A stretch of 44,070 nt of DNA, from NCBI GenBank assembly GCA_020833055.1, contig JAJHQZ010000008.1, positions 1-44,070 on the forward strand, written 5' to 3'. Within the stretch, counting starts at the first letter, position 1. Each line of letters begins with the position of its first letter. Source of the DNA: Candidatus Korarchaeum sp. (lineage in GTDB: Archaea; Korarchaeota; Korarchaeia; Korarchaeales; Korarchaeaceae). A program made the translations under genes and the position numbers. Below are positions 2,388 to 5,776 of the stretch, piece by piece. The notes under the pieces are model-generated. The model was not told where the DNA came from, made no database searches, and saw only the letters and a program-made list of their open reading frames with translations.

Positions 2388-3176
2388 CTATAGGAGAGAT
2401 AGGATAGCGATTCCTACTATAACGCAGTAATAGGAGAAGAGGTGAAGCTCGCCCCTCCTTATAACGGAGAGGAGGAACTTTATCGCGATCAAGCCAGTGA
2501 TGAATGAGCTCAAGAGGCCCACCAAATTCTCAGGATTCAATATCTCCTGAACTGGAGATACTATCAGCTCTAAGATGAGGAATCCAGTTAATGCGGGTAT
2601 TGAGAGGAGGAATGAGTACCTTACAGCTTCCTCCCTCTTCAAACCGCTCAGGAGGGCAGCTGATATAGTTGCTCCAGATCTAGATATCCCGGGGAATATA
2701 GCTATAGATTGAGCTAATCCAACTATGAGAGCCCTCCTGAGATCCAGGAGCCTCTCGCCTCCGGCCCATTTAGTGGAATAGAGTAAGGCAGCTGTGATCA
2801 GGAGACCTACCCCAACTATCTTCGAGCTCCCGAATATCTCATCGACGTATTTAGCTAAAGCCAAGCCCAGAACGGCTACAGGGACCGTGCCTATCAATAT
2901 GTAGAGGGGGAGCTTCCTCTCAGGAGAGGAGAACGCTGAACCCTTGGGGAGCTCTGAGATGCCCTCCAAGAAGGATTTAATAACTTTAAATACGTCCCTC
3001 CCGAAGGCCACGATCACAGCCAGCAGAGTCCCAGCGTGCACTAAAGCTATGAATGCAGCTGAGCTCCTAGATAATAAGATAATCTGAAGTAAGACTAGAT
3101 GGCCCGAGCTACTTATCGGAAGCCACTCAGTCAGTCCCTGGACTATCCCGAGGATGAGAGCTTGAGCTATTTCCAT
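2388..3176 (-). CDS. uppP: Undecaprenyl-diphosphatase / BacA family membrane phosphatase
   Basis: This BacA/UppP-type integral membrane protein dephosphorylates polyprenyl diphosphate carriers; in archaea the substrate would be a dolichyl- or other polyprenyl-diphosphate used for glycosylation. The signature QGLTEWLPISSSGHL is at residues 13-27 and the second motif PGISRSGATI follows in the middle. About eight hydrophobic segments span the rest, and the length of about 262 aa is normal. I start at the ATG at 3176 rather than the upstream one at 3200, because a TATA-like TTTAAATATTT (3200-3210) would overlap the longer N-terminus but lies about 30 bp before 3176. The left end of the mobile element at 3209 touches this promoter. 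Confidence 0.93.
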   Translation of the reverse strand: MEIAQALILGIVQGLTEWLPISSSGHLVLLQIILLSRSSAAFIALVHAGTLLAVIVAFGRDVFKVIKSFLEGISELPKGSAFSSPERKLPLYILIGTVPVAVLGLALAKYVDEIFGSSKIVGVGLLITAALLYSTKWAGGERLLDLRRALIVGLAQSIAIFPGISRSGATISAALLSGLKREEAVRYSFLLSIPALTGFLILELIVSPVQEILNPENLVGLLSSFITGLIAIKFLLSVIRRGELHLFSYYCVIVGIAILSLL

Positions 3177-3208
3177 TGCCGCTTCGAGGACCTCGATCAT
3201 TTAAATAT

Positions 3209-3431
3209 TTACAACCGAAAGCCTCGCCCTTCAGGGCGGGGATGGATAGAAAAGCTTATAACGCAGACCTAGTAGGAGCATACAACGTACTCATAACCCC
3301 GAGTCCCGAGAGGGATAGGGGTAATGGGCCGGAGACCCGGCCCGGGATTAAACCCTCAGGAAGAGGGGATGTAATCCCAAACCCCCTCGCTCTAGGGGAA
3401 CCATCGCACTTCAGGGCGGGGAGGAGGTCAG
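3209..3431 (+). mobile_element. IS200/IS605-derived non-autonomous element, copy 1 (MITE-like, tnpB 3' remnant)
   Basis: This 223-bp block is repeated base for base, inverted, at 5554-5776. It starts at TTAC, the target tetranucleotide used by IS608-type elements, followed by an 8-bp hairpin with a TTCA loop (3222-3241). It then carries a short open frame resembling a TnpB C-terminus (DRKAYNADLVGAYNVL), and ends with a second copy of the end hairpin (CGCAC-TTCA-GGGCG, one mismatch) just before GGTCAG. Subterminal hairpins at both ends with no terminal inverted repeats are the IS200/IS605 pattern. The interior folds into further stems: 3326-3332 with 3337-3343 (7 bp), 3366-3370 with 3374-3378, and 3383-3387 with 3394-3398. 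Most of tnpB and all of tnpA are absent. Confidence 0.85.
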
Positions 3432-3453
3432 CGAGCATTAGCTGGGGGTACTT

Positions 3454-3693
3454 ATGGAAGTGAGGGAAGGGGACCTGACAGCTGAGGTGAGCCTCAGGGA
3501 TGATGGGAAGGGATTATCGCTAGATTTAGAGCTCAGGAGGAATGGGAGGCTCGGACTTAAGCTACATGAGAAGCTATCTAATATTAAGGAAGTATTTGAG
3601 CTCCTGGAGAGGCCTACTTGGCTCGGTAAGGAATCCGATAGTTTAGTGAGGAGGGCCCTGCTCCTCATAAGTGAGAGTAGCGTTGGGGAGTGA
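3454..3693 (+). CDS. Small hypothetical protein (79 aa)
   Basis: The product is not recognised. It starts at an ATG 22 bp beyond the right end of mobile element copy 1. The first half alternates charged and hydrophobic residues (EVSLRDDGKGLSLDLELRR), suggesting beta strands; the second half is helical (NIKEVFELLERP, SLVRRALLLISES). Codon usage matches its neighbours, favouring a real gene over a shadow of the opposite strand. The upstream sequence would be the RNA guide region if the mobile element makes a reRNA. Confidence 0.45.
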   Translation: MEVREGDLTAEVSLRDDGKGLSLDLELRRNGRLGLKLHEKLSNIKEVFELLERPTWLGKESDSLVRRALLLISESSVGE

Positions 3694-3694
3694 G

Positions 3695-3915
3695 GCTTGT
3701 GAGCTGCCCCGCTCTAAAGAGCGAGGCTTCCGGCGTTAAGAGAGGCTTCACGCCTTTCCCCTCATCTGCCGGTTCGGGAACTCAGAACTCCCCCACCCCA
3801 TGCCTCCCATTAAGGCATCTACATCCTCCTGCGAGGGAACATCCCGAAGGACATTTAAGCTTTTTATATTTAAATTTTCCTCAAAATCCCCGCCTTTGAA
3901 GGCGAGGTTCTCGAT
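3695..3915 (-). mobile_element. Diverged IS200/IS605-derived element (third copy, different lineage)
   Basis: On the minus strand this stretch is bounded by two hairpins of the same geometry as those in the identical pair. The left-end hairpin (3888-3907) and right-end hairpin (3707-3726) each have an 8-bp stem, a 4-base loop and the CCTCG...CGGGG outer sequence. Between them a minus-strand frame ends in GMGWGSSEFPN...MRGKA, which resembles the Gly-Trp-Gly-x-Pro/Ser-Glu tail of many archaeal TnpB proteins. It also contains a 6-bp hairpin formed by ATGCCT and AGGCAT. The interior does not match the 223-bp elements, so it derives from another IS605 family. Boundaries are approximate. Confidence 0.6.
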
Positions 3916-3946
3916 TTCTTTATAAGCTGGCCTCACCTCCAGCGTT

Positions 3947-4222
3947 ATGAGGAGGCTCAAGGTAATCTGCAGGATCGATATGGTGTGCAGAGGAGCGGAG
4001 AGAGTTGATGAGTACAGAGCTGAGGGCTACTTACTCTCGGATCCTCCTGAAGTGATAGCTGTCATAGTTGAGAGGGATAATGAGAGGGGGACGACCCCTT
4101 ACATATGGCTGGGCACTTTCAAGAGCTCGGATGAAGCTATGAATTCCCTCAAGGATATGCTTTACAACATAGGGAGGAGGGAGGACAGGGGATTCGGGTG
4201 CCATGAGGCGGTAAAGGGATGA
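3947..4222 (+). CDS. Hypothetical protein (91 aa)
   Basis: The product is not recognised. Starting at the ATG at 3947, it has a strand-rich N-terminal half (RLKVICRIDMVCRG), a central segment EVIAVIVERDNERGTTPYIWLGTF, and a C-terminal amphipathic helix (SSDEAMNSLKDMLYNIGRR). There are three cysteines but no metal-site spacing that I recognise. It lies just beyond the left end of the diverged mobile element, within the accessory patch, and has no operon partner. Confidence 0.5.
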   Translation: MRRLKVICRIDMVCRGAERVDEYRAEGYLLSDPPEVIAVIVERDNERGTTPYIWLGTFKSSDEAMNSLKDMLYNIGRREDRGFGCHEAVKG

Positions 4223-4516
4223 GGCATAGCCTCAATATTGGAAGCTCACTCGCTTCCTTGCATTGAAGGCGTATCTGTTTTGGGAGCATCGTAAGGGAAC
4301 GCTCGAGCCGGCTATAGTAGTGAGGGGGATCAGCCGAGCCGGGATGTAGCTATCCGGATGGAGTGCTATCATATCCTTCGAGATTATAAGTGAGCTGAGG
4401 GAGTAAAGACAGTAAGGAGATCCAAATAAATCGAAATCCGGCGAATTTTATCGCATCACACCTTAGAGGTCTCGTAGTTGAGATGATCTCTCACTACAGA
4501 GAGCTTGGAGATCTAA
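4223..4516. other. Intergenic stretch with no assignable gene
   Basis: About 290 bp separate the hypothetical gene ending at 4222 from the toxin-antitoxin genes. A short hairpin GAGGC-ATA-GCCTC lies right after the stop (4222-4234) and could be a terminator. A plus-strand run at about 4270-4345 reads as protein-like for about 25 codons without a start or recognisable domain, so it may be gene debris. I see no tRNA, CRISPR or clear promoter. Confidence 0.4.
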
Positions 4517-4759
4517 TTAACCTGTCCAGACTTTAGCTCTCCTCAGTACTTCTATGAACTCATCGAGCGGGGCGTCAGCGACATGTTGAGCCTCTCTCAA
4601 GTCCCCCCTCTCTATGTAAACCTCTATCGCTTCCCTGAGCTCGGGAGATAATTTCCTTATGAAATCCCAATCAGCCCTCCTCTTCCTCAGTTCCCTGAGT
4701 TCCTCATCTATTAACTCCCACTCCTCGATGAGGTCACTCGATTCCGAATTCTCTGGCAA
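4517..4759 (-). CDS. Antitoxin-like small protein B, paralogue of the gene at 5279-5494
   Basis: This 80-aa protein shares most of its sequence with the small protein on the other side of the PIN gene: both have EEWELID.ELRELR, ADWD.IR, LREAIEVYIE.GDL and a C-terminal DEF.E...RA segment. The C-terminal half resembles UPF0175/VapB-like antitoxins, where a helix-turn-helix region ends in a toxin-binding tail. Its start overlaps the 3' end of the PIN gene by 26 bp, so the two are probably co-translated. Functional assignment rests on size, overlap with a PIN gene and that resemblance. Confidence 0.65.
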   Translation of the reverse strand: MPENSESSDLIEEWELIDEELRELRKRRADWDFIRKLSPELREAIEVYIERGDLREAQHVADAPLDEFIEVLRRAKVWTG

Positions 4760-5282
4760 CAGCTCTCACCTCCGAGGGGGAGAAGGAGTGATTCGAGTCC
4801 CTCTCATACTCCTCGATTAGTTCGAGGAAGCTAGTCTCTGGAGTTAACCCCCTCGCACATATGTAAGCCAGTAATCTGAGGGAATTCAGGACGATAGCTG
4901 GTGAGAACTTCTCTCTCATCAACCAATATGCTCTAATTATCCCTCTATTCTCAGTGAGCAGGGCTGAACCTAAGCGTCTAGCTAGGATAGAGCATAAAGC
5001 CTCCGGAGGATCTATCCTCGGGATCCTCGGGTCCCTCCTAGCATCTAATATCAAGCTCACTGCCTCTTCCTCAAGCTCCCTGGAATGAGGGTAGACAGTG
5101 AGCCAACCGTCTAAGATGAGCTCCCTCAGAGCTCTCAATGGCTTCTCTGTGATCACTTCCCTGAGAGTTATCTCGGGCATAAAGCCCGCGCTGAATATCT
5201 CCTTGATTAGATGCCTCCTTCTCCAGCGGGACCAATCTATTATGAAGCAGGCATCGAGCACGCAAGTAGATGGTAAACTCAA
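4734..5282 (-). CDS. PIN-domain ribonuclease-like toxin (VapC/DUF3368-like)
   Basis: This 182-aa protein begins with a PIN-type first strand (CVLDACFIIDW, Asp at residue 10), followed by a helix with a conserved-type acidic residue (ITLREVITE), then PPEALCSILARR and the strand ALLTENRGI. The last occupies the position of the LT(D/E)DRG motif that closes the PIN active site, although Asn replaces the usual Asp. A C-terminal extension of about 60 aa is helical. It overlaps a small antitoxin-like gene by 4 bp upstream and another by 26 bp downstream. PIN toxins cleave RNA and are neutralised by co-transcribed antitoxins; the target is unknown. Confidence 0.7.
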   Translation of the reverse strand: MSLPSTCVLDACFIIDWSRWRRRHLIKEIFSAGFMPEITLREVITEKPLRALRELILDGWLTVYPHSRELEEEAVSLILDARRDPRIPRIDPPEALCSILARRLGSALLTENRGIIRAYWLMREKFSPAIVLNSLRLLAYICARGLTPETSFLELIEEYERDSNHSFSPSEVRAVAREFGIE

Positions 5283-5494
5283 TGGAGGATCCCAGCCCTT
5301 ATCCTGATCTCATTGAACTCATCGGCAGTCATCCCAGCTATCTTAGCTGATATCCAGAGATCCCCAGTCTCTATGTAAACCTCTATCGCTTCCCTGAGCT
5401 TAGGAGGTAAGCCCCTTATGTAATCCCAATCGGCTTCTCTCCTCCTCAGTTCCCTGAGCTCCCCATCTATTAACTCCCACTCCTCCGAGGACAT
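5279..5494 (-). CDS. Antitoxin-like small protein A (UPF0175/VapB-like)
   Basis: About 71 aa, with an acidic helical N-terminus and a C-terminus LREAIEVYIETGDLWISAKIAGMTADEFNEIRIRAGI. The last part resembles the antitoxin pattern of a helix, a Gly, an Ala/Gly-rich turn and a final F...L..AGI helix found in UPF0175 proteins. The ATG at 5494 is preferred over the TTG at 5497 because a TATA-like AAATTTAAAAG (about 5517-5527) lies 28 bp upstream. It overlaps the PIN gene by ATGA-type coupling, giving the order antitoxin A, PIN, antitoxin B. The right end of mobile element copy 2 lies 30 bp upstream of the TATA box. Confidence 0.65.
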   Translation of the reverse strand: MSSEEWELIDGELRELRRREADWDYIRGLPPKLREAIEVYIETGDLWISAKIAGMTADEFNEIRIRAGILH

Positions 5495-5553
5495 CAACTC
5501 ATGAGTACTTCCTCCCTTTTAAATTTCTCCCAGTCCCCTCATCGGAGCGGAGA

Positions 5554-5776
5554 CTGACCTCCTCCCCGCCCTGAAGTGCGATGGTTCCCCTAGAGCGAGG
5601 GGGTTTGGGATTACATCCCCTCTTCCTGAGGGTTTAATCCCGGGCCGGGTCTCCGGCCCATTACCCCTATCCCTCTCGGGACTCGGGGTTATGAGTACGT
5701 TGTATGCTCCTACTAGGTCTGCGTTATAAGCTTTTCTATCCATCCCCGCCCTGAAGGGCGAGGCTTTCGGTTGTAA
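5554..5776 (-). mobile_element. IS200/IS605-derived non-autonomous element, copy 2
   Basis: This is an exact inverted copy of 3209-3431 by base-by-base reading over 223 bp. It shares the TTAC at the left end (5773-5776 on the minus strand), both end hairpins, the TnpB C-terminal fragment and the internal stems. Flanks differ immediately outside both ends, so these are independent insertions, not one segmental duplication. Perfect identity in sequence that should not be under coding constraint implies recent mobilisation, gene conversion, or selection on RNA structure. The left end abuts a decayed gene; the right end points at the toxin-antitoxin promoter. Confidence 0.85.

Follow-up and report, generated by a model that had tools for sequence, protein, structure and literature searches.

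Two gene-less IS200/IS605 elements in a hot-spring Korarchaeum could aim an enzyme encoded elsewhere at their own sites

Two identical, inverted copies of a short element (copies A and B) in the genome of a hot-spring archaeon, Candidatus Korarchaeum sp., are non-autonomous IS200/IS605 elements, i.e., PATEs, the IS605 counterpart of MITEs, and to judge from their sequence they could aim an enzyme encoded elsewhere at their own site. Their parent resides in the same genome and has the same ends, the deletion junction can be read directly, the target is TTAC, and the structure of the retained scaffold is intact. The original prediction had treated an orphan omegaRNA locus and a MITE as alternatives; copies A and B appear to be both.

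Copies, parent element and target site

The window analyzed here is one entire contig (C8, 44,070 nucleotides) of a draft genome of 25 contigs and 1.39 Mb. As had been observed, the stretches 3209-3431 and 5554-5776, of 223 nt each, are 100% complementary, i.e., inverted, and their sequences split immediately beyond both edges. They lie 2,122 nt apart in unrelated flanks, and a chance origin of this identity is negligible. The hairpins at the ends and the GC stems inside were likewise found in both, as was TTAC at the start of each copy; however, TTAC is the target rather than a part of the element, and the element proper is therefore 219 bp (3213-3431; 5554-5772). The tnpB remnant, thought earlier to comprise ~17 codons, in fact comprises ~50, with its frame running from the RuvC-III motif NADLVGAYN across the scaffold. 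In relatives this frame ends at the TAG of the right-end hairpin loop (TTTAG), where copies A and B read TTCAG. The 3' terminus common to both copies is GGGGAGGAGGTCAG. The features are as follows, with C3, C10 and C13 denoting other contigs of the genome and the copies that they carry.

3209..3212, plus strand: TTAC target site and presumed TAM of copy A; open reading frames are reopened at C3, C10 and C13
3213..3431, plus strand: copy A of the PATE (219 bp), non-autonomous and derived from the IS605 element at C3:48035-49823
3219..3242, plus strand: left-end hairpin, presumed TnpA recognition site, also in the parent and other copies
3249..3261, plus strand: BRE/TATA-like box GAAAAGCTTATAA, centre 34 nt 5' of the scaffold, with the deletion junction at the 3' end of the box
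3260..3415, plus strand: in-frame 3' remnant of tnpB, ~50 codons from NADLVGAYN
3293..3431, plus strand: omegaRNA-like scaffold of copy A (RF02656 E=3e-7; model R1 162 bits; 35/36 consensus pairs)
3402..3421, plus strand: right-end hairpin, with a C-to-A change common to A and B that breaks one pair
3432..3451, plus strand: presumed guide of copy A (CGAGCATTAGCTGGGGGTAC), by the position rule of IS200/IS605 omegaRNAs
5773..5776, minus strand: TTAC target site and presumed TAM of copy B, as in copy A
5554..5772, minus strand: copy B of the PATE (219 bp), with the same sequence as copy A
5724..5736, minus strand: BRE/TATA-like box of copy B, as in copy A
5554..5692, minus strand: omegaRNA-like scaffold of copy B
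5534..5553, minus strand: presumed guide of copy B (TCTCCGCTCCGATGAGGGGA)

Further copies and a full element with the same ends, both of which had been anticipated, are present in this genome. The former include a third copy of the 223-bp type (97%, C10:11680-11902), and the latter is a tnpA+tnpB element of 1,789 bp (C3:48035-49823), the two ends of which correspond to the left 52 and right 172 bases of the 223-bp sequence. It encodes a Y1 TnpA that looks intact (PF01797, E=1.5e-37; PDB 2ec2, E=2.9e-59) and a 442-aa TnpB, whose gene is the sole OrfB_IS605 match in the genome. An internal deletion of 1,566 bp has brought the RuvC-III codons directly behind the left TATA box, the junction being marked by a 2-bp microhomology (AA); because this junction is a clean deletion, full insertion sequences with a gradually decayed tnpB are ruled out. 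Three copies (A, B and C10) have this one deletion form while an intact tnpA lies elsewhere in the genome, and the PATEs have probably been moved by TnpA in trans. Four substitutions are common to A and B against both C10 and C3, which indicates that one copy was recently copied from the other or that both were homogenised.

When the element is cut out behind TTAC, an open frame is restored at three copies (C3, C10 and C13), the restored C3 frame being that of a CPBP-type protein with EELGWRG. These precise empty sites mark TTAC as the target, and presumably the TAM, and rule it out as a part of the element. TTAC precedes A, B, C3, C10, C13, C1a, C1b and C5b, and it stands 5' of every left end found by pattern, a pattern that itself includes TTAC. 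Overall, the elements have near-terminal palindromes in common with an IS605-type element and no terminal inverted repeats, insert 3' of a fixed short target without duplicating it, and at 219 bp are too small for a transposase ORF.

Several other features were observed around the two copies. A TTTAAATA box at 3200-3208 abuts the TTAC of copy A on its upstream side, where bacA (2388-3200, minus strand) begins, and the insertion of copy A may have cut bacA off from its upstream region. A third, decayed hairpin-bounded element lies at 3690-3925 (minus strand), with palindromes at 3885-3908 and 3707-3733, ~200 bp apart, and partial relatives on contigs C5, C18 and C1; it probably represents another IS605-derived PATE family. 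In addition, a 125-nt direct repeat (4602-4726 and 5361-5485, 86% identical) has a weak PIN-domain match (4734-5282) next to it, and these are possibly duplicated antitoxin-like genes.

The retained scaffold

The retained 3' part is, as far as its sequence tells, a complete omegaRNA scaffold: a segment of conserved structure that overlaps the 3' end of tnpB and the right end of the element. In line with the original prediction, it matches, from end to end, an archaeal family of RNAs that overlap tnpB (Rfam RF02656, sot0042), aligning over all 174 positions (3291-3422, E=3e-7; parent, 8.8e-9), and the six loci matched genome-wide all belong to this element family. The scores are 34-45 bits against a curated cut-off of 88, and the assignment therefore rests on position and structure. 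The sot0042 family has been treated as haloarchaeal omegaRNAs (PMC12558985).

A search of relatives with the 223-bp DNA mostly gave just the shared right-end motif, and a covariance model was used instead. An alignment of 19 scaffolds was assembled, 8 from this genome and 11 from other archaea, most of them beside tnpB, and in its 36-pair structure 96.0% of pairs are standard. The compensatory stem changes that had been expected across copies and relatives are present, since 11 pairs are altered on both sides, compared with 3.9 +/- 1.3 in shuffled alignments and at most 2 with the structure slid along the alignment, the latter control being biased in favour of a structure derived partly from the same sequences. 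The covariation score is 0.157, versus 0.100 in shuffles. Copy A forms 35 of the 36 pairs, and C10 and C13 form all 36. Both the position of the presumed guides 3' of the right end and TTAC in the left flank would fit an omegaRNA; a search of viral contigs gave no exact match to either 20-nt guide, and the guides do not recur behind a TTAC within the window.

The scaffold (window 3324-3444; L098-L102) also gives a full-length match, with the same 3' end GGGGAGGAGGTCAG, to HgcC (Rfam RF00062), at 27-43 bits against a curated cut-off of 50. Among the papers searched, none names HgcC and TnpB together. This old non-coding RNA family may be an omegaRNA.

Gene-less loci and the promoter-like box

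The covariance model finds ten scaffold loci in this genome, nine of them without tnpB. A search by left ends, which avoids scaffold bias, finds the scaffold in 8/10 derivatives, a set to which C5a, with a left end too degraded to fit the pattern, was added. The scaffold-less exceptions are a ~195-bp form on C1 (C1:27096) and a 42-bp terminal-only form on C18 (G000:C18:10669-10710, L154), in which TTAC is followed by one hairpin and GGGGAGGGGTCAG, a left-end arm being joined to a right-end arm; this element adjoins a decayed right end on the opposite strand. Among 80 scaffold loci in 14 archaeal genomes, a selection from which, in one Wolframiiraptor genome, many loci linked to tnpB were omitted, 55 are without tnpB (at least 1 kb of upstream sequence available and <100 nt of tnpB), 14 are tnpB-linked, 5 have fragments, and 6 could not be assigned. 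In Wolframiiraptor allenii (G070; L191-L230), 59 scaffold matches were found in ~1.3 Mb, and many of them adjoin a tnpB gene that is either full or internally deleted; this is a case of large IS605 expansion.

The main rival to a functional scaffold is that it is a passenger: these would be plain PATEs in which the ends alone matter, the scaffold persisting within the last ~170 bp only because the deletions are recent, with no RNA acting in trans. We take this to be a real possibility, albeit not the one we would expect to hold. Such elements are well described in archaea, some as 52-bp terminal-only forms (PMC3119063), and the 42-bp derivative is of this kind; moreover, several orphan copies are decayed (C5a and C5b among them). 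Speaking against such a reading is where the deletions end on their right-hand side: four independent classes stop close to the scaffold's 5' edge, at about -41 nt (A, B and C10), -10 nt (C1a, C1b, C5a and C5b), 0 nt (the C13 lineage) and again 0 nt (the orphan of a Korarchaeum genome in one contig). In each of these four independent short classes, a BRE/TATA-like box is retained with its centre 25-34 nt 5' of the scaffold, a spacing at which archaeal transcription would begin at the scaffold edge. The box is absent in three single copies elsewhere (L255, L263 and L272), one of which is truncated into the scaffold.

Also set against the passenger reading is the tnpB-less C13-type lineage, in which promoter box, 5' domain and scaffold have all been kept in different phyla. 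Its elements measure 259-272 bp (~267 bp, n=17 measured), the distance from left end to scaffold being 126-131 nt, and occur in this genome, Desulfurococcales MAGs, a Thermoprotei MAG and Wolframiiraptor allenii. The promoter box has a mean column identity of 88%. Between it and the scaffold lies a 5' domain of ~75 nt (GGTGATGAG...TTTGAGCC...GCGATGATAAAT; L017:765-1033, L231-L236, L239-L243, L247-L249, L271, L191 and L192), which at the loci examined is always ahead of a scaffold (decayed in 1/17) and never within a tnpB element. RNAalifold gave no convincing structure for this domain in the orphan-only alignment, and a C/D-box reading (GTGATGA / CGATGAT) found no support in Rfam. In Zestosphaera there are at least 8 elements, mostly 337-342 bp in size, in which this domain is longer and contains a stem of 11 bp.

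Covariation among the orphans is weak and speaks for the passenger scaffold. In the C13 lineage alone, 87.3% of positions are paired versus 86.2% in shuffles (17/500), and 6 pairs are changed on both sides versus 6.5; only the number of cells changed on both sides (20 versus 11.8) is above chance. These near-chance values suggest that individual copies are mostly neutral after insertion and that conservation is a property of the lineage, and many orphan copies are probably decaying.

Proposed mechanism and comparison with known systems

The reading that we favour, and hold to be somewhat probable, is that A and B are PATEs that arose through the 1,566-bp internal deletion of the resident IS200/IS605 element and were spread in trans by its TnpA. 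The left-end TATA box would start a transcript just 5' of the scaffold, and this transcript would pass the right end into the flank, giving an omegaRNA whose guide is the adjoining host sequence. The TnpB encoded on C3 would load this RNA in trans and, after excision by TnpA, cut the empty site (TTAC plus guide), so that the sister chromosome would serve to restore the copy. A guide of this kind is specific to its locus, and every copy would therefore need a scaffold of its own; this would explain why the scaffold is kept in widespread gene-less forms. Counting against this mechanism are the near-chance covariation of the orphans, the scaffold-less derivatives, the broken pair in the right-end hairpin of A and B, and the low Rfam score.

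The resident TnpB may use such a cassette of promoter-like box, scaffold and flank. It has PF01385 and Cas12f1-like TNB domains, and its nuclease activity is not certain, given that its clade has a Gly (VGYPK) where the canonical RuvC-II has Glu. However, close homologues all share D208, D375 and E340, the last within a [DN]ExxTS motif, and this Glu recurs in more distant homologues; RuvC-II is rearranged in some TnpB clades, and an RII-r5 TnpB of this kind cleaves DNA (PMC10278001). An AlphaFold model built from eight sequences (pLDDT 39.8) was set aside. Homologues of 82-85% identity occur in Desulfurococcales MAGs, which makes a transfer of the element from one archaeal phylum to another probable, although MAG binning error is possible.

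The missing canonical Glu might also suggest that scaffold transcripts have been co-opted, for example to guide a nuclease-inactive TnpB that represses host genes, and copies do adjoin such genes, as copy A does at the bacA start (3200). We regard this as very improbable, because the relocated Glu (E340) is invariant in close homologues, the copies are young, probably mobile and at unrelated loci, and their guides are not repeated in the window behind TTAC. Still less probable is an assembly artefact, through duplication of one copy or inversion of the 2.1 kb that separate the repeats: 223-bp repeats are prone to misassembly, and these are identical on a window that is one whole draft contig, but both copies have distinct flanks on each side, and a further, independent copy (97%) is present on a different contig.

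Extending the favoured mechanism, we tentatively propose, at a confidence somewhat short of probable, that self-guiding PATEs form a mobile, horizontally moving gene-less lineage in several archaeal phyla that uses the TnpA of autonomous IS605 elements to move and their TnpB for retention. Its parts would be the TTAC target, left hairpin, BRE/TATA box, conserved 5' domain, omegaRNA scaffold and locus-derived guide. If gene-less elements do carry their own guide RNA, retention by TnpB would be a shared, genome-wide property rather than that of one element, the question of how short PATEs outnumber their parents becomes testable, and many natural locus-specific guides would be available for one nuclease.

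The closest known elements are the PATEs of Haloquadratum, which resemble A and B in lacking terminal inverted repeats, target duplication and a transposase gene and in having near-terminal palindromes of an IS605 parent with the core deleted; they are mobile, as A and B probably are (PMC3119063). They differ in that here a promoter-like box is followed by a retained segment recognised as a whole omegaRNA scaffold; the 2011 paper predates omegaRNA, and in the portion considered the elements are not treated as guide-RNA genes. The sotRNAs, or omegaRNAs, of archaeal IS1341-type tnpB (RF02656) have the same position relative to tnpB and align over their full length, whereas here tnpB is missing and the score is below the gathering cut-off (34-45 versus 88 bits). 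HgcC (RF00062) is likewise matched over its full length with the same 3' end, and differs in a score below its cut-off. Finally, stand-alone, trans-acting omegaRNAs of IscB systems were reportedly described by Altae-Tran and colleagues in 2021; these are, like A and B, guide RNA loci without an adjacent nuclease gene, but they belong to IscB, with another scaffold and another protein fold.
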